A DNA stretch of 64,000 nt. Origin: an uncultured Bacteroidales bacterium (lineage in GTDB: Bacteria > Bacteroidota > Bacteroidia > Bacteroidales > Muribaculaceae). The notes beneath the pieces are model-generated. The model saw nothing but the letters and a program-made list of their open reading frames with translations. It was not told the origin of the DNA and did not search any database. The position numbers were made by a program, and so were the translations under genes. Of this stretch, positions 9,652 through 23,049 are shown piece by piece (the stretch's first letter is position 1; every line of letters starts with the position of its first letter). The stretch is from NCBI GenBank assembly GCA_947573135.1, contig CANPDU010000005.1:42809-106808 (forward strand), given 5' to 3'.

Positions 9652-10629
9652 TTACTGATACAGAGATCCGGTGTTGAGCACAGGCTGTGCAGGTTCGTCA
9701 GCGCAGAGCACCACAAGCAGATTGCTCACCATCGTAGCCTTGCGTTCATCGTCGAGCGCCACTATCTGTTCTTCGTCGAGCTGATCGAGAGCCATTTTAA
9801 CCATCGACACCGCGCCTTCTACGATCTTCTCCCTCGCCGAAATTATAGCCGATGCCTGCTGGCGGCGCAGCATCACCGCCGCGATTTCAGGCGCATATGC
9901 AAGATAGTTCAGACGGGCCTCGACAACCTCTATGCCGGCCATTGCCAGACGCTCGTTCAGTTTCTCCTCGAGCTGTTCGTTGATCTCGCTGGCGTCGCTC
10001 CTGAGCGTTATCTCCTTGTGTTCGCCGTTTTCCTCATCATAGGCATAGCGGCCCGTCACTTCGCGCAGGGCGGCGTCGCTCTGTATCCCGACAAACGCGT
10101 TAAGCGCCTTGGCTATCGAATTGGTCAGAGTCGCCGACGCTGCGGCTTTCTCGTCCGTGCTTACTGCGATTGCCGGCACCTGGTCAGCATCCACGTCAAA
10201 CACTGCGCGGTAGGTGTCCTTAACCTTCCACACCAGCACCATGCCTATCATCACCGGATTGCCCACCTTGTCGTTGACCTTGATCGGAGCGATATCCATG
10301 TTGCGTATGCGCAGCGAGATTTTTTTCTTGGTCATGAACGGATTGACCCAGAAGAAACCCGTCTCGCGGTATGTTCCCTGATATTGGCCGAAGAATATCA
10401 TCACGCGCGCCTGGTTAGGCTGCAGCACGAAGAATCCGCACGCTGTGATAATCATCGTAATCAGCCCGATGCCGCTCATCACCCCTGCGAGCCAGTAGTA
10501 TTCGAAGGGCAGAAACACAAACAGCGCCGCTATTATTGCCGGTATTAAAAGCAGCTCCACGGCGAGCATTGCAAAACCGTTGTAAACCTTTCCCTGATAG
10601 GGGACTTCCTTGTCAATTTGAGCTTTCAT
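9652..10629 (-). CDS. SPFH/band-7 domain membrane protein
   Basis: From MKAQIDKEVPYQGKVYNGF; two hydrophobic segments then RVMIFFGQYQGTYRETGFFWVNPFMTKKKISLRIRNMD; C-terminal LNERLAMAGIEVVEARLNYLAYAPEIAAVMLRRQQA. Confidence 0.9.
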   Translation of the reverse strand: MKAQIDKEVPYQGKVYNGFAMLAVELLLIPAIIAALFVFLPFEYYWLAGVMSGIGLITMIITACGFFVLQPNQARVMIFFGQYQGTYRETGFFWVNPFMTKKKISLRIRNMDIAPIKVNDKVGNPVMIGMVLVWKVKDTYRAVFDVDADQVPAIAVSTDEKAAASATLTNSIAKALNAFVGIQSDAALREVTGRYAYDEENGEHKEITLRSDASEINEQLEEKLNERLAMAGIEVVEARLNYLAYAPEIAAVMLRRQQASAIISAREKIVEGAVSMVKMALDQLDEEQIVALDDERKATMVSNLLVVLCADEPAQPVLNTGSLYQ

Positions 10630-10704
10630 AAGTGATATTGTTTTGATATTATTTCGATACAAAAATATATAAACAATTTCACATCTCCAAAAAAAAAAAT
10701 CATC

Positions 10705-11250
10705 ATCCACCCGCGCCTCTGCGTGAAAACAATTTCTGCACTTCGCGCGACATCCCCTAATCGCTTCTCTGACTGACATTCTCCCTTGCGATCTTCGCGC
10801 CTCTGCGCGAGATACCATAAGCCTGGCGTCGAAGCCGCGCAACATCCCTTAATCGTCTCTTCAGCCAGATTTCCCCTTTGCGCTCCCCGCGCCTCTGCGC
10901 GACATCATCTCCCGGCGAAAAAAGCGTCGGAGACGCTCAATATGTTAATTCCCATAATTAGCGCTGAAAGCGTGGTTTATGGGGTGACAGGCGTCACCCT
11001 CAAATATGCGCATCGGAGCCGCGCGACATTCCATAATCGCCTCTCTGACTGACATTCTCCCTTGCGATCTTCGCGCCTCGGCGTGAGATATTTCCGGCTC
11101 TCCGCGCGATGTTACGCCAAGTGCGTCGGAGACGCTCAATATGTTAATTCCCATAATTAGCGCTGAAAGCGCGGTTTATGGTGTTTCAGGCGTCACTCTG
11201 AAAAAGGCGCGTCGGCGACGCGCGACACCCCCTAATCGCTTCTCCCCTCC
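10705..11250. repeat. Compound intergenic repeat array (a 70-bp module plus a ~60-80-bp hairpin-rich module, each recurring)
   Basis: gcgcgacat-cc-taatcgc-tctctgactgacattctcccttgcgatcttcgcgcct at 10745-10814 and 11021-11090, degenerate copy about 10832-10906; gcgtcggagacgctcaatatgttaattcccataattagcgctgaaagcg at 10924 and 11123. Confidence 0.85.
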
Positions 11251-11253
11251 CTG

Positions 11254-11688
11254 CTATTCCAGCGGCTTCCGCATTTTGTTCATCTGGCGTCGGTAGAAAA
11301 CTGTGTCGGGCAGTTTGCTACGGTCAAGCGCGTATTCAAAATATCCCACTATCTCACTATTGCCGGGATTGGTATAATCATACGCTACAAAAATCGAATC
11401 TCCTTCAACTATTTTAGAAAGTCCACCATACCCGGCTCTTCCGCGAAAAATCGAATCACCTACATAAAATTCATATAATTTACCGGGATTACGGTCTAAT
11501 TTAATTTTATAAATAACACCAACCGTATACGCCGTATGGTTGTTCAGACTCTTTGTACGCATTATTTCATAAGGTATCATTAAAGAAAACATGATAATGA
11601 AGCCGGCGGCACAGATATGATCCTCATCATACACCTTCTTTTTCAGATACTTTAATCCAATCATAAATATCTTAGCGAAACTTTTCAT
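11254..11688 (-). CDS. Hypothetical membrane-anchored protein
   Basis: Hydrophobic segment ICAAGFIIMFSLMIPYEIM; no family recognised. Confidence 0.5.
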   Translation of the reverse strand: MKSFAKIFMIGLKYLKKKVYDEDHICAAGFIIMFSLMIPYEIMRTKSLNNHTAYTVGVIYKIKLDRNPGKLYEFYVGDSIFRGRAGYGGLSKIVEGDSIFVAYDYTNPGNSEIVGYFEYALDRSKLPDTVFYRRQMNKMRKPLE

Positions 11689-11804
11689 AACGAGCTGTTT
11701 GGGGGGATTGTTGACCTGGCAAAAGATTTAGACGCTTGAATATTACGAACTTCCTATGTTTAACTTTTTCAACTGATAAATATTGTTACCTATTTGGTAC
11801 CCAG

Positions 11805-12248
11805 TCAATCCACAGCATATAATGTGTAATTCCCATTTCTGAAATCGAATAGACTGGATTTGTATATAGCAAGGTCGAGCCTTTTATGTGTACCTTTCTC
11901 CTGTCCGAAAACTACAATGATTGAATCTGTATGAGAATCATAGAGCGAATCACAACTATAGAGATCTTCAATTTTGCAAGATTTAATATCATCATTTAGT
12001 AATGTATTATAATCCACAACAATACCACCTTCTACTGCGATGCCATCATCATAAATGATGAGATCAGGTATTGCTGAATAAGTTGAGAGCGTATGTCGAT
12101 TAATTAATTCTATACAGATAAATTTTCTACATTGCTCTTTTAAAACCACTCTGAAATTAGAGTTTTCATATATGTATTCTTTTTCTCCTACTATACATGA
12201 TGCAAAAAGGAATAGCAATGCAATTATTGGTTTTAAACGACGATACAT
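11805..12248 (-). CDS. Small putative lipoprotein, candidate immunity protein for the upstream orphan Rhs tip
   Basis: Lipobox-like MYRRLKPIIALLFLFASC; directly downstream of the CHAP-tip gene on the same strand. Confidence 0.5.
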   Translation of the reverse strand: MYRRLKPIIALLFLFASCIVGEKEYIYENSNFRVVLKEQCRKFICIELINRHTLSTYSAIPDLIIYDDGIAVEGGIVVDYNTLLNDDIKSCKIEDLYSCDSLYDSHTDSIIVVFGQEKGTHKRLDLAIYKSSLFDFRNGNYTLYAVD

Positions 12249-12294
12249 CTCGATGTCTTTTACATTAATTAATAGATTGATTGAGGCTTTTTCA

Positions 12295-13428
12295 TTACCG
12301 AGTAGTATGTACTCCTATCGAACGCCCTCTAAGATTAAATTCTGGCAAAGAGATATTTGAGGCAGAATGATTTGTTGGGTAAACATATTTTAATACGTTG
12401 TTTGTGGAATTTGGGGACAAATTAACTGCATCATTTTGATTGCCACCCAATATAATAAGACGACCATCTTTATTCCGACCGACAACAAAACCTACATGGC
12501 TGTAATTCATTATCGCTATAGAGCCGAACTGCGGAATGGAATAAGATTGCCCCCATGTTTTGAATGTATAAACAGCCGCATGATTACTCCCTTCTATGCC
12601 TGAGTTTTCTAAACAAAAGTTGACAAAAGCAGCACACCAAGCTGTTTTATCGGTCTGTGACGCAAGAGTGCCTTTTAATTGAGTATAATCAAAATATTTT
12701 AGAATTTCTGGATTATCGCCTGTTTCTGAAATATCTTTATTCATTTCTTCTACTGCAACATCAATCCATGGAGTATTATTCTCATATGTCATTTTTCCGT
12801 TTGAATTATAAAATTCAGTCATAAGCCCGCTCTCACTATTTCCACGGACATTAATATCCATCCAGATTTTATCTCTTTTATAGGATGTTCCGCGATAAAT
12901 TTCATTTTCAGACAGGACCGAAGTATAATTTTTCTCATTAACATCCTCTCTCCAATTTATATCTCCTTCTTCATTTTCGACCCAATCCTTCCCGTCTTCA
13001 TCCACTCTGTTAATCGGATCGCCGCCGCAGTAGGAATATGGGGATATGGGATAGAATTTCCAGGCAAGCGGGTCGGGGGTCGACCAGTTGCCGTAGGGGG
13101 TGAGGATGCGGGCGCCGAAGTCGTAGGCGTTGCGGCCGCCGGAGTGCTCGCGTTCCTTGCCGCCGAAGAGGTAGCGCTGACCGCTCGGCTCTACCGTCGG
13201 CTCGCCGTAGGGATAATAGGTCGTCTCCTGGACTACATTGCCTCGGTTGTCGGCCACGACGGCATTGTTGCCCTGCCAGTCGGTAAGATAGTACATCGTG
13301 CCGCCCTGAGGATCGAAGTAGCCCCCGGCGAATGCCGAGTATTCGAGCTTGCCGTCGCGGGACACATGCGGCCCGACAGACTCTTTGAGACGGTAATAGG
13401 AGTATTCTTCCTTTATGATAGTCAGCAT
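12295..13428 (-). CDS. Orphan Rhs tip: RHS-repeat-associated core fragment fused to a CHAP/TIGR02594-like amidase domain
   Basis: Core GPHVSRDGKLEYSAFAGGYFDPQGGTMYYLTDWQGNNAVVADNRGNVV...YGARILTPYGNWSTPDPLAWKFYPISPYSYCGGDPIN then TDKTAWCAAFVNFCLENSGIEG...GSIAIMNYSHVGFVVGRNKDGRLIILGGNQNDAVNL. No signal peptide. Confidence 0.8.
   Translation of the reverse strand: MLTIIKEEYSYYRLKESVGPHVSRDGKLEYSAFAGGYFDPQGGTMYYLTDWQGNNAVVADNRGNVVQETTYYPYGEPTVEPSGQRYLFGGKEREHSGGRNAYDFGARILTPYGNWSTPDPLAWKFYPISPYSYCGGDPINRVDEDGKDWVENEEGDINWREDVNEKNYTSVLSENEIYRGTSYKRDKIWMDINVRGNSESGLMTEFYNSNGKMTYENNTPWIDVAVEEMNKDISETGDNPEILKYFDYTQLKGTLASQTDKTAWCAAFVNFCLENSGIEGSNHAAVYTFKTWGQSYSIPQFGSIAIMNYSHVGFVVGRNKDGRLIILGGNQNDAVNLSPNSTNNVLKYVYPTNHSASNISLPEFNLRGRSIGVHTTR
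13009..13378. repeat. Copy A of 370-bp direct repeat encoding the Rhs core
   Basis: Collinear with 15572-15941, same length, same orientation, scattered substitutions. Confidence 0.9.
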
Positions 13429-13481
13429 AATAGATGACTTAATATAATTATTTTAGCACACTCGCAGCTTGTTAATATCAA

Positions 13482-14198
13482 TTATTCATATTGTACGACC
13501 TCTATCTTCTTGTTGAAATCAAGACCTGTCAGGCCATTGGCTTTGGCTATTTCTACAAAGCGTTCGCTTACAAAGGTACCGGAAAAATTAAATTTAAAAA
13601 AATCAAGATCAATTGGGAATGTACCGTTCACTGCGATCCGGTCAACGCCTAAAATGTGCGTATAACCATATATATAATAATCGTCAATGGATTTGAAAAT
13701 AGGAACTTCCGTATCAATCTTTCTATATTGTGTTGAGCCTATTTCATCACCGATTGACTCCTTTTCATACTCGGAAAAACTGCATTTATCCCATATAATA
13801 TAATCAAACTGTTTAAGCCGAAACGTTCCGACAAAATAATAAAGCGTTGGCTTCCCTTTTATATAGATTCTTACAGGGTACACCCTATGATCTCCAATAT
13901 TTAGCTCCTTTAAGCAGCCAAATGCTTTTTTACTTATAAACGGGACAAGAGTATAAATACAGTTAATAAAATCAATTGTCTTGGCTTTTCGTGATAGTTT
14001 GAACTCCCCGATCGTAGGTTTGAAATCAGGGTATGTCAGACCTTTATATATCCAACGTGCAACCTTAAACAGATTACTCTTATCATACGGATAGCCCTCT
14101 TTTAAATAATTGATGTTATATGGACTGATCTTGCCAACGATTTTATCATTGGTAGTTGTATCGGCGCGATAGAATATTTTTTTCTTTTTAAACCTCAT
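13482..14198 (-). CDS. Imm11/DUF1629-like putative immunity protein (paralog 2)
   Basis: ...FISKKAFGCLKELNIGDHRVYPVRIY...DYIIWDKCSF...FVSERFVEIAKANGLTGLDFNKKIEVVQYE; paralogous to 14256-14981. Confidence 0.65.
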   Translation of the reverse strand: MRFKKKKIFYRADTTTNDKIVGKISPYNINYLKEGYPYDKSNLFKVARWIYKGLTYPDFKPTIGEFKLSRKAKTIDFINCIYTLVPFISKKAFGCLKELNIGDHRVYPVRIYIKGKPTLYYFVGTFRLKQFDYIIWDKCSFSEYEKESIGDEIGSTQYRKIDTEVPIFKSIDDYYIYGYTHILGVDRIAVNGTFPIDLDFFKFNFSGTFVSERFVEIAKANGLTGLDFNKKIEVVQYE

Positions 14199-14255
14199 AA
14201 TGTGTTAAATCAAGAATTATTGATTACGTGACGGTTATTTATGCAATTATACTGA

Positions 14256-14981
14256 TCAGATATATTGTACAATCTCTATTTTCTGTTTAAAATCAAGACC
14301 TATCAGACCATTTGCCTTGGCTGTCTCGACAAATCGTTCACTTACCAGTTTGTTAACAAAGGCGTTATAGAATTTGACATAATCAAGCTCGATTGGAAAT
14401 TTTTCGTTTACAGCAATCGATTCTACCTCCGGCCAATGCGTGGCGCTAAAAGCGTCGAAATCATCGACAGATCTGAATACTGGTACTTCGGTGTCGAGCC
14501 GTTTGTCGTAGATGCTGTCAAGGTCGGCACTTTTGAATGCAAGTTCGGTATCATAAAACCGGCATTTATCCCAAATTATATAATCAGCTTGTTTATAAGG
14601 TAGTACCCCGGCAAAAAAATATAATATAGGCTTCAGCCTATGATAGACTCGGACTGGATAAATCCTATGAGTTCCGAAGTTTAACGGTCTAAGACAGTCA
14701 ACTGCTTTCTTACTGAGGAGCGGTTTGTCAAACATTGAGGTGCTTAGAAAATCCGTGGGCTTGGCTGATTTCATAAGTTCTATACCCCCGAGCAGTGGTT
14801 TAGTACGCGGAAAGATGAAGCCTGACCCTATCAGTCTTTGTACATGATATATCCCACGGGGAGTGTCGACATAGCTGTTCATTCCCTTTAGAAATTCGCG
14901 GCACTGCGGAAACACCCAACCTGTATCCTTATCAATTGTATGCTTTGGACAGTAAAATGTTTTTGATCTCTTTATTTTCAT
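14256..14981 (-). CDS. Imm11/DUF1629-like putative immunity protein (paralog 1)
   Basis: ...LLSKKAVDCLRPLNFGTHRIYPVRVY...DYIIWDKCRF...LVSERFVETAKANGLIGLDFKQKIEIVQYI; immediately downstream of the AHH-tipped Rhs gene. Confidence 0.68.
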   Translation of the reverse strand: MKIKRSKTFYCPKHTIDKDTGWVFPQCREFLKGMNSYVDTPRGIYHVQRLIGSGFIFPRTKPLLGGIELMKSAKPTDFLSTSMFDKPLLSKKAVDCLRPLNFGTHRIYPVRVYHRLKPILYFFAGVLPYKQADYIIWDKCRFYDTELAFKSADLDSIYDKRLDTEVPVFRSVDDFDAFSATHWPEVESIAVNEKFPIELDYVKFYNAFVNKLVSERFVETAKANGLIGLDFKQKIEIVQYI

Positions 14982-15007
14982 AATGTTCAGCTTTTTATGC
15001 GAAAAGA

Positions 15008-18000
15008 TTATATTTCCGGATGCTCGTGCGGTAAAAAATCACGCTTTCCTTTGTTCTCGGGTTCGTTCAACATCTTTCTCAATTGATCCAAAATTGGCGG
15101 CACAGTCTGAAATTCCAGATCATTAATTTTGACATCAGGATTATCTATTATTTTTTGTCTGATTTCTTCAACGATGCGGTTAAAATCCTCTAATGGGATT
15201 TTGTAAGGGCTATCGGCATCTTTATTCACATTATCTAATTCTTTAGATGCTTTCTCTAATTTATCAGCGACCCTTTCGGTATATTTGCCATGCTTAGCAT
15301 GTCTGCCAGTACCCGTCGTTTTTGAAAATTTTTCCACAGGGATCTTATTGCCTTTCCCGTCAAGTTTAAAGCCTTGCCGGATAGCATCCTGCAATAGTTG
15401 ATTCTTACCACTTAATGAACGAGGAATAATATGATGATTTTCAATTGGATTTGGCCCCTTAGGAGCAACACGTGGAATGACAGGTTTTGATGCGGATAGC
15501 AGAAGTGGATTGTTCATACCTAACAGCGGAGGAGGTAAAACAAATACTTGTTTTCCGTCGGGATCTATATTGTTAATCGGGTCTCCGCCGCAGTAGGAAT
15601 ATGGGGAGATGGGATAGAATTTTTCGGCGAGCGGGTCGGGGGTCGACCAGCTGCCGTAGGGGGTGAGGATGCGGGCGCCGAAGTCGTAGGCGTTGCGGCC
15701 GCCGGCATGCTCGCGTTCCTTGCCGCCGAAGAGGTAGCGCTGCCCGCTCGGCTCTACCGTCGGCTCGCCGTAGGGATAACAGGTCGTTTCCTGCACTACA
15801 TTACCCCTATTGTCAGCCACGACGGCATTGTTGCCCTGCCAGTCGGTAAGATAGTACATCGTGCCGCCCTGAGGATCGAAGTAGCCCCCGGCGAATGCCG
15901 AGTATTCGAGTTTGCCGTCGCGGAACACATGCGGACCGACATACGACCGCCGCGACTGCAGCTTATACTCGCTGTCGGGATATACGGTCTCGGGCGTCGT
16001 GAGCATGGCTTCGGGAACCTGCGAGTACTCCACCGAGAGCTTGCCGCCGAGTCCGTCATAGGTGATATGCTGCCGCTGCCCGCCCGTCAGGTAGACGTCG
16101 GCAGGCTGATTGAGACGGTTGTATTTTATCTGAAGAATGCCGCGCGAGGGATCGGCCGTGAGGTTGCCGTTGGTGTCGTATGTAAAGCCTGTGACCGTGC
16201 CCGAGGCGCTCACGCCCGTGCGCCCCTCATAATCGGCGCCCTCGCTGTCGGCCTCCATTTTGGTGAGCCGGTTGTAGGTGTAGGTCATCGTCAGGTCGCT
16301 CTGAACTCCGTAGACGTTCTTACCGCCTACGATGTCGACGATGCCGCGCCGCATCATCGTTTTGATATTGGCGTTGCGGTCGTAGGTGTATTCGGTCGAG
16401 AAGTCGGGCGCATCCTTAAGGCTTATGGGTCCCGAGCTTCCTGATGTCGAGGCCGACAGCCGGCCGTGGCTGTCGTAGCTGTAAGCGGTGTGGCGGCCGT
16501 CGCGTGTGCGCCCCGATATCTTGCCGTCGTAGCGCGCCGTGCTGCCGCTGCCGCTTTCGGCGTAGTGGAGCTTCTCGTTGAAAATGGTCGCCGTGTAGGT
16601 CGGTGTCAGCGATGAGGCGCGCTGCGCGCCGCCCGTCTCGCCGAGCTGTATCACCGGCGGCAGTCCTGACCGCACGACCGTAGCCGACGACGAGGTGAGC
16701 CATCCGTTGGCGTTATAGCCGAATGTCCGCGTGATACGCCCTGAAAGCAGTGTTTCGGATATGCGGCCGGCATCGTCGTAGGTGTACTCAAAGCGCGCCG
16801 TGTCGGCTCCCTGTCTCACCGTGACATCACGGAGATGGCCCGACGAGTAATAGCGCCGGGTGATGCGCTGCTCGGGCGCCGACAGGCCGTATTCGGTCAC
16901 AAAACGTTCCTCGACGGGCTTGCCCTCGTAGTCGTAGCGCGTGAAACGGCAGTTTTCGGGGAAATCGATATATGATCCGCGGGCCACGCGCACCTCGCGG
17001 CCGAGGTTATCGTAGTGGGTGACGGTCAGCCGCTTTTCGGCGAGAACGGCCGTCAGCAGCCCTTTTGCATCTGTCCGCGGCGTCGGGAAGCCTGCCGGGG
17101 GTGTGTATGACGCCCATCCGCTCTCGACGGAAGACACAGACGCGTAGTCGTCATAATAACGGGCTTCGGCGAGTTCGGTGAGGTTGAAATTCGTCGGCGC
17201 GCCGATAATGATGTAACCTCCGGTGGCATCGGTGACCGGCCGCGATGACGGCGCTGCCGTCATATACAGCGTCTGCATGTTCCCGACAGTCTGCTCTGTC
17301 GCTGAAGCCAGAGACTGAACCACTTCGCGGCCCAGTCGGTCATAGAAATGGAACAGCCAGCGGCCTTGAGCGCGCAGATTGCCGTCCTGCTCAGCGAAAA
17401 GGCGCCCGCCGATGTCGTAGCGGCAGAGCGTCGGCTCTCCGCCGGGCAGCGACTTTGACACGCATCTGCCGCGGGCGTCATACTCATAGCTGAACGTCGC
17501 TTTAACAGGAACAGTACGCGAGGTCTGAAGCGGCTGTATCACGTTTGTCAGATCGCCGAAGTCGTTGTAGACATAGCGTGTGTCGTTCCAGTCGCCGGCG
17601 CAGCCTTCGCGTGTCATGACCGTCAGACCCCGGCGGTCGGTGAAGGTCATCGTCACGTGGCCTTCCTCGTCGGTGATCTCCTCGACGGTCAGAGTGCCGG
17701 CCGGATAGTTTGTCGCGCCACGGACCTGAGTGGCGCTGTAGGGCTTATAGTTGTAGCAAGAATAATTGCCCGATACGGTGTTGACGAGACGCCGCACGGT
17801 CACCCGGCGGTCGGCGTCGTGCCATTCCTTGCCGGCTTTACGCGATCCGGCGGTGACGGCAAGGGGCGACGCTTCGTAGTAGGTGGTCGAATATGCGTAT
17901 GATGTGCCGTAAAGACTGCGGGCGGCAGTCGAGATCTCAGACGCCGAAGGGTGTCTGCCGTTGACATGGACGGGCGACCACGAGCGGTAAGGCCTGTCCA

Positions 18001-21000
18001 TGGCGTCGTACTGCGTCAGAGCGGCATAATAGCCGCCGTCCTTTATGGTCAGGGGCGGTGTAAAGCGCGCGGCTGAGATACCGCCTCCGAAATCTGACAC
18101 GAAAGCCTCATTCGGGTTCGGAGCGACGGTCAGTCGCGACGACTCGCGGCCGAGGCCGTCGTAATTGATTATTTCGCGTATGGACGCCGAGGTACCCGTC
18201 GCCGACTTGAACACGCCCGATGTCATATAGTTATGGCCGTCATCCTGCACGTGATAGCTGTAGCCCTCGACCGGACCGTGGCCGTCGATCGCCGTCCTGA
18301 TCAGGCGCCCGGCCGAGTCGTAGCCGTAGGTCGTCGTCAGCCCGTCGGGGCGACGCAGCGACGCCATGCCGACAAGAGGTTTCCACAATACCTTGGTCAC
18401 ATGCCATCCGGCCGGCAGAGCCGGTGTTACCAGCTCGGCTGAACCGTTGGTGAAATTGGGCGAGGAACTGTATGCTGCCGCCTGTGCATACCTGACGCCG
18501 TCGATGCGGTAGACGGGATAAAGGCCGCCGTAGCCCCACAGATATGTTGTCACGACGCTGTCCTCGCCGCGGTACTGGCGTATGTTGCCGAAACTGTCGT
18601 AGTCGTATTCGCCGGCGAGCCATTCCGTAGCTGCGCCGCGTCTGAGCCATGTTTTCTCCGGACGGTAGACGCGGTTGCCGTAATGCTTCATCTGGTGACG
18701 GACGGTAGTGACGGCGTCGCCGAACGTGCGGCGTGTCTGTATCGGAACGGAAACGATATTGGCGCTGACCATCGACCGTTCGACGGATGTGCCTGAGGCC
18801 GAGGGATAGGTGAGGTCTATGCGTTCTCCGCGGCTGTCGCCGGGAACTGTGGTCACGACCGAGGTTATGATCGAGGTGCCCGGTTTGTATTCGTAAGTCT
18901 CTGTCTGCGAGAAATCACCGTTCTCGAGATGCCGTGTCACCGTCTTCGACTTCAGCCGCTCGGATTGAAGATAGATAGTATAGGGTTCGACCCGGTAAGG
19001 GCTGCTGCCGTTATAAAGTTCCGGAGAATAAACCTCACACAGATCAATCTGTAACGCTTCGGTATCTGTACCACCGAAAGATCCGGTGTGTTGGAACAAC
19101 CAGCGCAGATAATGACCGTTTAAGAAATCTGGCGCTTCGAGCGAATTTGTGAGCGTCTGTATAAGATAGCGCGATATATGTGTATTGACAATTTGGCCAT
19201 TCTGAACGCCTGATAACTGAATGATTTTTTCATAGGAGCATATTTCGTCCGCCACGGGACGATATGTGCCGGAAGAATCGGTCTTATATGTTTTAGTTCT
19301 GATAAGCTGAGCTCCTTTGCTGAACACATTGTTCATCTGTACCGGATGGGAATACCCCCACTCCCGGTATTCGGAGTCGGACGGCAGTGTACGGTTGAAA
19401 CTGTACTCTGTCTTGCCTTCGGGATAGGTTTCGTTGACACGCCTGTACCATATAGCATCCTCACCCGTGCGGTTGGTCATGTAATTGGAACTATAACCGA
19501 CATTGACCATCCTGTAAAAATAGCACTGGGTTTCAAATGTTCCCGGGTTCATCAGGCCGATGCCTTTTGTAACAGAGATAAAACTTGCGGCCGACGGAAC
19601 AGATACAACCTGAACGGAATCATATGAATACCGGCGGATATGAGGGGATCTGTCATTTTCACCGGCATATGTGGCAATGCTTTTTATCCTAAGACCGCCG
19701 CCAGAGTCAAGTTCGGGATCATATTCGTCTTTAATATTGCCTGACGAGGGCAGCTTCGTCTTAGGAAAACGATGAGGCTCATAATCAAACTCACTGTAGC
19801 CTCCTGTCGGATATGTGATTCTTTTAATCAGTCCGGCCTTCATCTTCTCCGCGTCTACAGAGCGGTCTGCGTCTCCGATACTCTCATAATAGCTGTAGCC
19901 GTTACGTTGTTGCTGTGACTTTATGGAAAGGGCGGGAGTTAGAGAAGTGTTATTTTTTCCATTGTAATATCCCCACCAGTCCGTACTAAGTCCGGCGCGT
20001 TCGGTTGCGGACCAAATTTCATTGTAGGCGAAGCTATAGACATTGTCCTCATTGATAGAAACGGATTGGAGCAATTTCTTTTGCGAACCGTCTGACCCGT
20101 ATTTCAAAATGACATGATTTACAAGTTCGCTTTTATTATTATAGACTGATATTTCTGAAAGAAATTTTTCAGTATATCGGAAGCTGATAGAGCCCCCCGG
20201 GAATGTAACGTTTTTTAAATGTAACCTTGCTCTATATGCTCCGTTATTTACAAATTGCACGTCTGACGAGGGGCTGATCCACCCGACTGAAGGATCGTAA
20301 AATTTATTGTAGGCATCTCCGGGCGAATAAGAATCCTTGCCGGTTTTCCCTCCAAGTATACTTATGCGATCATGCGTGAAAGACTCCCAGTCAGTTTCAA
20401 TGGTACGTCCTGACGGAAGCTTAATCGTTTTGAGAGCCCAAGCCGTATGATAAGGTGTTGTACTATATTCTTCGTCAGGTGAATAATCCTCGAATTTATC
20501 TTTGAAAGTATAGACAATACCTGTTGCATCTGTGGCTGTTATAACTCCAAGCCCGGCAGTTCCGGTAATCTTTATCTCGTTGTCACTGCCGCCACCTATA
20601 AAATCCCATCCGCTGCCGTTATTGACGATTATTCTTGTGTATACACCTGATGGGAGCGATATCATAAATATGTCCTTCTCAGGGTCATACCTGTTTTCAG
20701 TATAGTCTAATGTTCCGCCGGAAGGTGTGTTGTCATTGCACATTGCCGAGAATGTCATTTCGGGAGAGAGAGCCAGGTCTCCCGGAACGTCACCTTTATA
20801 TTCAAATCTTTCATCACAGCGTCCCCGGACTGTGCGAGTGACCTTTAACGCCGGCGTAAGACTCCATCCATAGCCGCACGGATAAGGATCGTCTGTAGGC
20901 TTGATGCCCGAGGTGTGATAATTGAGGGTGAACGGTATTTGCAGTCCCTCGACATCGATCGTATAGAGCGGTATCGAGAGGTTGACAGCGCCAGTGGCCA

Positions 21001-21169
21001 GTGCCGGCTGGGGACTCTGATAGCGGATCTGCTGCGCGCTCGACGGGGTCGGCGGAATGATCTCGTTGGTCTGCGGCGATATCATCAGCCCTGACGAACC
21101 TTGCGCCTGCGCCGACAGCACAGACAGCACAAATGCGAGCAACAGCGATATTATATTGTAGTTTTTCAT
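15008..21169 (-). CDS. Secreted Rhs/YD-repeat polymorphic toxin with C-terminal AHH-type nuclease
   Basis: Signal peptide MKNYNIISLLLAFVLSVLSAQAQG; YD repeats (YDGLGRESSR, YDNLGREVRV, YTYNRLTKME); RHS core ...DPLAEKFYPISPYSYCGGDPINNIDPDGK; tip NHHIIPRSLSGKNQLLQDAIRQGFKLDGKGNKIPV...GRHAKHGKYTERVADKL. Confidence 0.9.
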   Translation of the reverse strand: MKNYNIISLLLAFVLSVLSAQAQGSSGLMISPQTNEIIPPTPSSAQQIRYQSPQPALATGAVNLSIPLYTIDVEGLQIPFTLNYHTSGIKPTDDPYPCGYGWSLTPALKVTRTVRGRCDERFEYKGDVPGDLALSPEMTFSAMCNDNTPSGGTLDYTENRYDPEKDIFMISLPSGVYTRIIVNNGSGWDFIGGGSDNEIKITGTAGLGVITATDATGIVYTFKDKFEDYSPDEEYSTTPYHTAWALKTIKLPSGRTIETDWESFTHDRISILGGKTGKDSYSPGDAYNKFYDPSVGWISPSSDVQFVNNGAYRARLHLKNVTFPGGSISFRYTEKFLSEISVYNNKSELVNHVILKYGSDGSQKKLLQSVSINEDNVYSFAYNEIWSATERAGLSTDWWGYYNGKNNTSLTPALSIKSQQQRNGYSYYESIGDADRSVDAEKMKAGLIKRITYPTGGYSEFDYEPHRFPKTKLPSSGNIKDEYDPELDSGGGLRIKSIATYAGENDRSPHIRRYSYDSVQVVSVPSAASFISVTKGIGLMNPGTFETQCYFYRMVNVGYSSNYMTNRTGEDAIWYRRVNETYPEGKTEYSFNRTLPSDSEYREWGYSHPVQMNNVFSKGAQLIRTKTYKTDSSGTYRPVADEICSYEKIIQLSGVQNGQIVNTHISRYLIQTLTNSLEAPDFLNGHYLRWLFQHTGSFGGTDTEALQIDLCEVYSPELYNGSSPYRVEPYTIYLQSERLKSKTVTRHLENGDFSQTETYEYKPGTSIITSVVTTVPGDSRGERIDLTYPSASGTSVERSMVSANIVSVPIQTRRTFGDAVTTVRHQMKHYGNRVYRPEKTWLRRGAATEWLAGEYDYDSFGNIRQYRGEDSVVTTYLWGYGGLYPVYRIDGVRYAQAAAYSSSPNFTNGSAELVTPALPAGWHVTKVLWKPLVGMASLRRPDGLTTTYGYDSAGRLIRTAIDGHGPVEGYSYHVQDDGHNYMTSGVFKSATGTSASIREIINYDGLGRESSRLTVAPNPNEAFVSDFGGGISAARFTPPLTIKDGGYYAALTQYDAMDRPYRSWSPVHVNGRHPSASEISTAARSLYGTSYAYSTTYYEASPLAVTAGSRKAGKEWHDADRRVTVRRLVNTVSGNYSCYNYKPYSATQVRGATNYPAGTLTVEEITDEEGHVTMTFTDRRGLTVMTREGCAGDWNDTRYVYNDFGDLTNVIQPLQTSRTVPVKATFSYEYDARGRCVSKSLPGGEPTLCRYDIGGRLFAEQDGNLRAQGRWLFHFYDRLGREVVQSLASATEQTVGNMQTLYMTAAPSSRPVTDATGGYIIIGAPTNFNLTELAEARYYDDYASVSSVESGWASYTPPAGFPTPRTDAKGLLTAVLAEKRLTVTHYDNLGREVRVARGSYIDFPENCRFTRYDYEGKPVEERFVTEYGLSAPEQRITRRYYSSGHLRDVTVRQGADTARFEYTYDDAGRISETLLSGRITRTFGYNANGWLTSSSATVVRSGLPPVIQLGETGGAQRASSLTPTYTATIFNEKLHYAESGSGSTARYDGKISGRTRDGRHTAYSYDSHGRLSASTSGSSGPISLKDAPDFSTEYTYDRNANIKTMMRRGIVDIVGGKNVYGVQSDLTMTYTYNRLTKMEADSEGADYEGRTGVSASGTVTGFTYDTNGNLTADPSRGILQIKYNRLNQPADVYLTGGQRQHITYDGLGGKLSVEYSQVPEAMLTTPETVYPDSEYKLQSRRSYVGPHVFRDGKLEYSAFAGGYFDPQGGTMYYLTDWQGNNAVVADNRGNVVQETTCYPYGEPTVEPSGQRYLFGGKEREHAGGRNAYDFGARILTPYGSWSTPDPLAEKFYPISPYSYCGGDPINNIDPDGKQVFVLPPPLLGMNNPLLLSASKPVIPRVAPKGPNPIENHHIIPRSLSGKNQLLQDAIRQGFKLDGKGNKIPVEKFSKTTGTGRHAKHGKYTERVADKLEKASKELDNVNKDADSPYKIPLEDFNRIVEEIRQKIIDNPDVKINDLEFQTVPPILDQLRKMLNEPENKGKRDFLPHEHPEI
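15572..15941. repeat. Copy B of 370-bp direct repeat encoding the Rhs core
   Basis: See 13009-13378. Confidence 0.9.
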
Positions 21170-21171
21170 AG

Positions 21172-22215
21172 TCAGCGGATTATAATAATTTCTTTTTTAG
21201 GTTGAACCGGAAAGCCCGCCACCCCAATGGCCGCGATATACTGTCCGGAGCGCAATGATGAGCAATCAAGCGAAATTTCATCGGCTGACCCGCTTGATTC
21301 TGCTGACTTGTGAAGATAAAGGCGACCGGCGGCATCCATGATGTCAAGAGAAATATTAAGCCCGGAAACAGGCATTTCTATACTGACAGTCACGTTTCTG
21401 CCGTCATATTTGAGATCCGCTCCGTCAAGGGCGCCGCTGACAGCTTCAGGATCAACAGAATTATGATCGAATGGCTCATCGCCTGATTTTTCGCTTCTGT
21501 CACATGCTCCTCTGTCGGGAAGATATGCCGAAGACGAAAGCGGAGCAGTATCGGCTGCAATAGTTCCCGAAGCATAAACCGATCTCTGAACGGCAAGCGG
21601 AAGCAGCGATGAGGCTCCGTCACTGTCGTACCACCGATAAGTTTCTGTAGTTAAATATGTTTCAGCTGCAACACTGTCATCGGGGAATGTCGCGGCTGTG
21701 TACCGGCGCTCCCGCGTTACAGTCACATTACGGATCGTATCCCCCGGTGTCATTATGAGTGTCCCGACGCACGGAGCACTCATAAATTCAAGTGTGCCGT
21801 TCTCTTTGATTGCAAAACGTTTGCCGCCGCCGGTGCCCGACGCATCAAACTTATATCCGCCGTTTCCGGCGCCGGATCGTAAAGGCAAAGACGCAACATA
21901 TACCGGGTTACTTGCTGTGATTGTCGTAAGACGGTCCTCTTCACCTAGATACAATATTGAATCACCGCTTATGCCGTACCAGTACCGACGTCCTCCGATT
22001 GTCTCGGCCATTAAAGAATCGCCATAAACAGATATCAGAGTCCGCGCTTTGTCGTCAGACATCCATTGCTGCGAAAAATCCCATGTCCGCGCCTGCAGAA
22101 TGTCCCCTTTGAGAGGAGATAACTCAATTGGCATCGCAATTTCCTTCGTCATCGCCGGCAACGCGATTAAAAAAGAAAAAGCGAACATACACAAAGCTAT
22201 TCTGAGTCGATTCAT
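21172..22215 (-). CDS. Secreted protein with T9SS-like C-terminal domain, translationally linked to the Rhs gene
   Basis: Signal peptide MNRLRIALCMFAFSFLIALPAMT; C-term GLNISLDIMDAAGRLYLHKSAESS...LRSGQYIAAIGVAGFPVQPKKEIIIIR; stop lies 2 nt before the Rhs ATG. Confidence 0.65.
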   Translation of the reverse strand: MNRLRIALCMFAFSFLIALPAMTKEIAMPIELSPLKGDILQARTWDFSQQWMSDDKARTLISVYGDSLMAETIGGRRYWYGISGDSILYLGEEDRLTTITASNPVYVASLPLRSGAGNGGYKFDASGTGGGKRFAIKENGTLEFMSAPCVGTLIMTPGDTIRNVTVTRERRYTAATFPDDSVAAETYLTTETYRWYDSDGASSLLPLAVQRSVYASGTIAADTAPLSSSAYLPDRGACDRSEKSGDEPFDHNSVDPEAVSGALDGADLKYDGRNVTVSIEMPVSGLNISLDIMDAAGRLYLHKSAESSGSADEISLDCSSLRSGQYIAAIGVAGFPVQPKKEIIIIR

Positions 22216-22245
22216 GGCGATAGCGGATTAGATTGTCAGTTTTCG

Positions 22246-22253
22246 CAAAGATA
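22246..22253 (-). promoter_or_regulatory. Putative Bacteroidetes -7 box for the Rhs operon
   Basis: Reverse complement TATCTTTG (TAnnTTTG) about 30 nt upstream of ATG 22215; no convincing -33 box. Confidence 0.45.
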
Positions 22254-22433
22254 ATGATTCTTTTTAATAATGGAGATAAAAACTGCAGCTAAATTTTTTT
22301 CAAAAAATTGAATGCGACGAATTTGGCTGTAACTTGCTTGTAAACAGTAAGGTAAATCGAAAATATAGCATGAACCGATGTGTTAAACCGACCGTCTCGC
22401 CTAAAATGCTAAAAATCCGCTTCATCCTTGCTG

Positions 22434-22441
22434 TAACTTTG
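22434..22441 (+). promoter_or_regulatory. Putative Bacteroidetes -7 box
   Basis: TAACTTTG upstream of the 22483 ORF. Confidence 0.45.
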
Positions 22442-22482
22442 CAGGCAAAAATATGATTATTCACTTTTGAAACCATCAACCT

Positions 22483-23049
22483 ATGAGAATTCATCGCAAA
22501 TCTCCTTTTTCGGCCAACTTTACTCGCCGCTGTCTGATCGATCTGCCTTCGGTCGGGGCTGCCGCTTCGCTTCCCTGCACCATGCGACTTGCCGCCAAAG
22601 ACATCATCGAGGAAAATAAGTACAATCCTGATGAAAATTATCTCCCCATGCTTTGCCGTGTCCGGCTGTATGACCGCAACGACAAGCTGATCTACACTTC
22701 GCGCCGCTACGCTGTGGGCGGCGAGTTCCCTCAGGTCTTCTTAGAACTGGGATATTATTACCGTTATGTCGCCACATGCCGGCTCTGGACTCTTGAAGTC
22801 GACACTGACAGGATTGTGCCTTTCAGGCTGCGCAGCCGTGCCGTCCGCGCCGAGGTTGTAGCCTGTCCCGACGTGCCCCGCGACTACCGTCCGCGCGAGC
22901 GCGTGATTAAGACGATCACTCTTACTCCGTGGGCGACGCGGCTGTTGCTGCCCGTCGATCCGTCGAAAGATAAAAAATCAAAACGCACTGACAGTCCGTG
23001 GGGTCGCCGTTTGCGCCTCTCCCGAAAAAATTGTAAATTCGCCCTTGCT
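22483..23049 (+). CDS. Uncharacterised protein; frame continues without a stop into tilS
   Basis: MRIHRKSPFSANFTRRCLIDLPSVGAAASLP...; N-terminal 189 codons of the 1400-aa ORF. Confidence 0.55.

Follow-up and report, generated by a model that had tools for sequence, protein, structure and literature searches.

In Salmonella Typhimurium LT2, a full-length rhs gene (rhs-main) and a displaced C-terminal module (rhs-CT-orphan) share 522 bp of core at 95% identity, and this pair has been shown to recombine: Southern blot, qPCR and PCR all revealed recombinants (Koskiniemi et al. 2014, PMC3967940). That study also gave evidence that duplication comes first, which spares the main immunity gene from loss (PMC3967940). 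Orphan rhs-CT/rhsI and cdiA-CT/cdiI modules have been described more generally, with tips that recur on other full-length genes (Poole et al. 2011, PMC3150448). For V. cholerae, a further report describes sequential displacement of T6SS effectors, which leaves immunity arrays (PMC5361080), and a Salmonella orphan rhs has been reported to act as a toxin-antitoxin module (PMC7043789).

The window analysed here, by which we mean the whole stretch of 64,000 nucleotides from one contig of an uncultured Bacteroidales bacterium (Muribaculaceae), contains a comparable locus. Its orphan rhs-CT module is of a known and ordinary kind, and the initial annotation described it correctly. Transcription is from the minus strand, in the order 21172-22215, Rhs 15008-21169, 14256-14981, 13482-14198, 12295-13428, 11805-12248, and the parts of the locus given below lie on that strand. 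As in LT2, a full-length gene is followed by its immunity gene, putative in the window, and then by an orphan tip with a direct core copy (522 bp at 95% in LT2, 370 bp at 94.1% in the window), and in both loci a simple crossover would take the main immunity gene with it. Unlike LT2, where recombinants were detected, the window is known from one assembled genome; this genome also differs in having several further modules, in the signal-peptide-like start of its Rhs, and in yielding no match to the T6SS sheath protein VipB/TssC, for which the E. coli control was positive. The modules of Poole et al. (PMC3150448) are similar in that a tip and an immunity gene, the latter a candidate in the window, lie with variable core homology downstream of a full-length gene. 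The boundary is different, being PxxxxDPxGL (Rhs) or VENN (CdiA) in enterobacteria and GGDPIN followed by a VD/ID-x-DG-like stretch in the window.

The full-length Rhs gene (15008..21169, 2053 aa) encodes a signal-peptide-like N-terminus, a variable segment (aa ~90-750), an RHS/YD backbone, DUF6443, the Rhs core TIGR03696 and an AHH tip. Matches to PF05593, TIGR03696 and PF14412 were all above cut-off in a profile search, which places the gene among the Rhs polymorphic toxins. Judged by the VipB test, its predicted delivery is not by a T6SS. T9SS sorting tails do occur on proteins of this genome. The ORF upstream of the Rhs (21172..22215), which is duplicated at a second Rhs locus on contig C16, has a weak match to such a tail (Por_Secre_tail).

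The AHH (HNH/EndoVII) putative toxin tip (15008..15571, 39% GC), assigned by profile match, is absent from all other genomes in the genus set. It is followed by two putative immunity genes, a (14256..14981) and b (13482..14198), whose products are 45% identical. The initial annotation had called both Imm11-like, a label that proved weak: PF07791 matched gene b at 13.3 bits against a cut-off of 22.1 (E=0.052) and did not match gene a. Gene a has a relative on contig C33 (69% amino acid identity), and contig C46 also carries a related gene (50%). In the family, three genomes of two other genera have AHH tips 39-47% identical to this one (tblastn) on cores 35-37% identical, and relatives of both window genes come after the AHH tips there, in G107 as a tandem pair. 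Because these relatives follow AHH tips in other genera, assignment of the two genes as putative AHH immunity is supported despite the sub-cut-off Imm11 match.

The orphan module is an ORF of 377 aa (12295..13428) in which the core repeat, matching the same core domain as the full-length gene, is joined to a TIGR02594/CHAP tip, both tip profiles matching above cut-off. With ~124 core codons, a CHAP tip and no delivery part, it has the make-up of an orphan rhs-CT; the N-terminal Rhs part is missing, and there is no obvious signal sequence. Its ATG lies 53 bp past the preceding gene on the same strand. The CHAP tip probably acts on peptidoglycan. A lipoprotein-like ORF (11805..12248) directly follows, without a family match in the profile search; its position and lipobox-like start make it the likely immunity gene to the CHAP tip. 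This tip is absent from every other genome of the genus set, none of the 48 carrying it on a full-length Rhs. The family sample gave one weak match, in a 1085-aa frame at a locus without a significant Rhs core match, and a GTDB scan with the tip returned distant matches to its CHAP part and nothing closer. Downstream of the module, window positions 10744-11244 hold short dispersed intergenic repeats of 71- and 122-nt families. An Rfam search of 10500-22600 gave no match.

The repeat itself covers the terminal part of the Rhs core, with one copy in the full-length Rhs (15572..15941, 62% GC) and the other opening the orphan core and CHAP module (13009..13378, 63% GC). The initial annotation had claimed a collinear direct repeat of 370 bp, with copies equal in length and orientation that differ by substitutions, and had asked for the two segments to be aligned. 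The alignment bears this out: there are 22 differences in 370 bp (94.1%, ungapped, offset 2563), the copies share orientation and codon phase at a distance of 2563 bp, and at the same offset identity drops to background beyond both ends. By blastn the limits are 13008-13381 and 15571-15944 (374 bp, 93.85%). The similarity reflects homology rather than chance, because the repeat is an island of 62-63% GC amid tips and immunity candidates of 32-41%. At its left end, where identity collapses, the CHAP and AHH tips start, so homology does end at the tips as had been stated; its right end (13381) is the start of the orphan's own short 5′ sequence. Nineteen codons are changed between the copies, 14 synonymously and 5 non-synonymously (dN 0.022, dS 0.21, dN/dS ~0.10). 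This low ratio suggests that most of the orphan core's divergence built up when it still belonged to a functional gene.

It had further been proposed that the substitutions could map past exchange, and this was not supported. The second full-length Rhs, on C16, served as the third allele in a mosaic test. At the sites that separate the two full-length alleles, the orphan has the C16 base 13 times and the base of its neighbour 11 times; these fall into 11 runs and show no significant clustering (p=0.27, runs test). There are also 11 differences private to the orphan core. Because of the 13 to 11 split, the lack of clustering and the private differences, the orphan core is, on sequence comparison, a third and roughly equidistant allele, and a recent origin as a copy of the adjacent full-length gene is improbable. 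Homology between the orphan and C16 reaches slightly further tipward (397 bp). The longest identical run within the repeat pair, 95 bp, is marginal under random placement (p=0.027, coding constraint uncorrected).

Footprints of exchange are found elsewhere in the genome. A backbone tract of 2403 bp (16359..18761) is identical to the C16 full-length Rhs (L008 7787-10189), and comparison of the two loci gave a second identical tract of 1196 bp (20949..22144) that covers the rhs 5′ end and most of the upstream gene. Each is flanked on each side by diverged sequence (3-17%), and both look like recent gene conversion, with linkage across the 2403-bp tract depending on the draft assembly. The 2403-bp tract ends ~420 bp short of the core repeat, and the two genes bear different tips, AHH in the window (contig C5) and Toxin-JAB1 on C16. 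Between the identical tracts, at residues ~90-750, the two proteins are mostly 27-60% identical, and the N-terminal segment (window ~18965-20840) is nearer to the Rhs of a different species (G014) than to the C16 paralogue in the same genome.

A tip is involved in one further case. The Peptidase_M91 tips of orphan modules on C16 and C21 are identical over 561 bp (L008:14929-15489 and L011:7931-8491), from the last ~30 core bases almost to the end of the tip. On the upstream side, core identity is 88-95% over ~100 bp and 62-68% further out; on the downstream side, it is 57-78% in the spacer and the putative immunity gene. Movement of the M91 tip from one orphan module to another would be the simplest reading. 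On contig C33 a decayed module (L009:9525-10770) has its core cut at GGKER and its tip lost, with an out-of-frame remnant, and keeps intact the 69% relative of the window immunity candidate. It resembles the V. cholerae loci, where immunity genes stay behind after effector replacement, in its remaining immunity-like gene; those loci are described as T6SS effector loci without an Rhs core repeat (PMC5361080). Four Rhs/immunity arrays carry, at an end or a junction, a ~60-bp element with an inverted repeat (ATTGTC..GACAAT; L009:9543-9601, L044:~10851-10912, L008:12335-12393 and G000:C14:11253-11298), which is absent from the window.

Across the genus, core matches were found in 27 of the 48 genomes. 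The nearest core lies in the same genome for 30 of 36 cores (permutation mean 2.4, maximum 10), and cores group by genome, not by full-length or orphan class. Such grouping could reflect local duplication, repeated over time, or homogenisation; in either case orphan cores would derive mostly from resident Rhs. Between species, similar tips occur on very different cores (e.g. G014 and G034, with tips 59% and cores 39% identical). Core direct repeats within an array are present in ten genus genomes including that of the window, at up to 99.5% over 581 bp (G022).

In our view the downstream copy is likely to be an orphan rhs-CT/immunity module able to serve as a tip-swap substrate, the role given to it by the initial annotation. 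This draws support from the analogy with LT2, whose type of tip-swap locus likewise has in-phase core homology in direct orientation (here 94% over 370 bp), and from the exchange footprints at other Rhs copies of the genome. Also in its favour are a core family peculiar to this genome and joined to many tips, the clustering of cores by genome, homologous tips on unrelated cores in different species, the in-array core repeats of ten genus genomes and the low dN/dS of the orphan core. For swapping at this very pair we see roughly an even chance. We infer toxicity, immunity and recombination for this particular pair. Against our preferred explanation, no recombinant of this pair was seen, its longest identical stretch is 95 bp, the orphan is no closer to its neighbour than to the C16 Rhs, the CHAP tip was found on no full-length Rhs in the genus or family samples, and the recent exchange tract between the two full-length genes stops ~420 bp before the repeat.

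In the proposed mechanism, the full-length Rhs would bear a single tip at any time, and orphan modules would form a store of additional tips, whose attached core would be long enough for pairing with a full-length gene. The spare CHAP tip would be retained with the last ~124 codons of Rhs core, and homologous recombination in the core (deletion or gene conversion), presumably RecA-dependent, would join CHAP in frame in place of the AHH tip. As the initial annotation had foreseen, a crossover in the repeat would remove 2563 bp, comprising the AHH tip (15008-15571) and both genes (14256-14981 and 13482-14198). Because simple deletion takes the AHH immunity candidates too, a productive swap would be easiest after duplication, as proposed for Salmonella; the related genes on C33 and C46 might soften the loss.

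The orphan could instead be an inert relic: a former toxin end, pushed aside by arrival of the AHH tip and unused since, with the repeat as a by-product. Its missing secretion signal would fit, as would a core that is an equidistant third allele with private substitutions, the existence of decayed modules such as that on C33 and the fact that no recombinant was seen in a sample of one genome per species. We nevertheless think this reading unlikely, given that core and tip frames are open, that dN/dS in the core is ~0.10, that the CHAP and TIGR02594 matches exceed their cut-offs, and that other orphan modules show exchange footprints. Much less probable still is that the orphan works inside the cell as a toxin-antitoxin-like gene of its own, expressed from the operon and with the core part left over. 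The open frame, the closely spaced same-strand ATG and the reported Salmonella precedent (PMC7043789) are compatible with such a gene, but a tip of the peptidoglycan type has no cytoplasmic target, and the lipoprotein-like immunity candidate would point to periplasmic action.

The identical tracts between Rhs copies might also be assembly artefacts, the genome being a draft of 56 contigs, repeats of 0.4-2.4 kb being difficult for short reads and several core copies of relatives lying at contig ends. This too we regard as improbable: unresolved repeats usually break contigs and do not yield two embedded copies, divergence of 3-17% sets in at the borders of the tracts, and the window's own pair, 94% identical, lies inside one contig.

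Returning to tip exchange as the preferred reading, we tentatively extend it to the whole gene, with confidence that falls somewhat short of even. Rhs may diversify at two cassettes, namely the tip and an N-terminal segment of ~650 residues whose alleles predate the species. Gene conversion would shuffle both on a common backbone that is homogenised again and again and is fed by a genome-wide orphan store, without a T6SS. The locus carries the enterobacterial idea of swappable Rhs tips into a lineage with T9SS sorting tails in which a T6SS is apparently lacking. Given the difference-free tracts of 2403, 1196 and 561 bp between diverged flanks, reads of a single isolate could serve to measure how often and in what way tips are exchanged.
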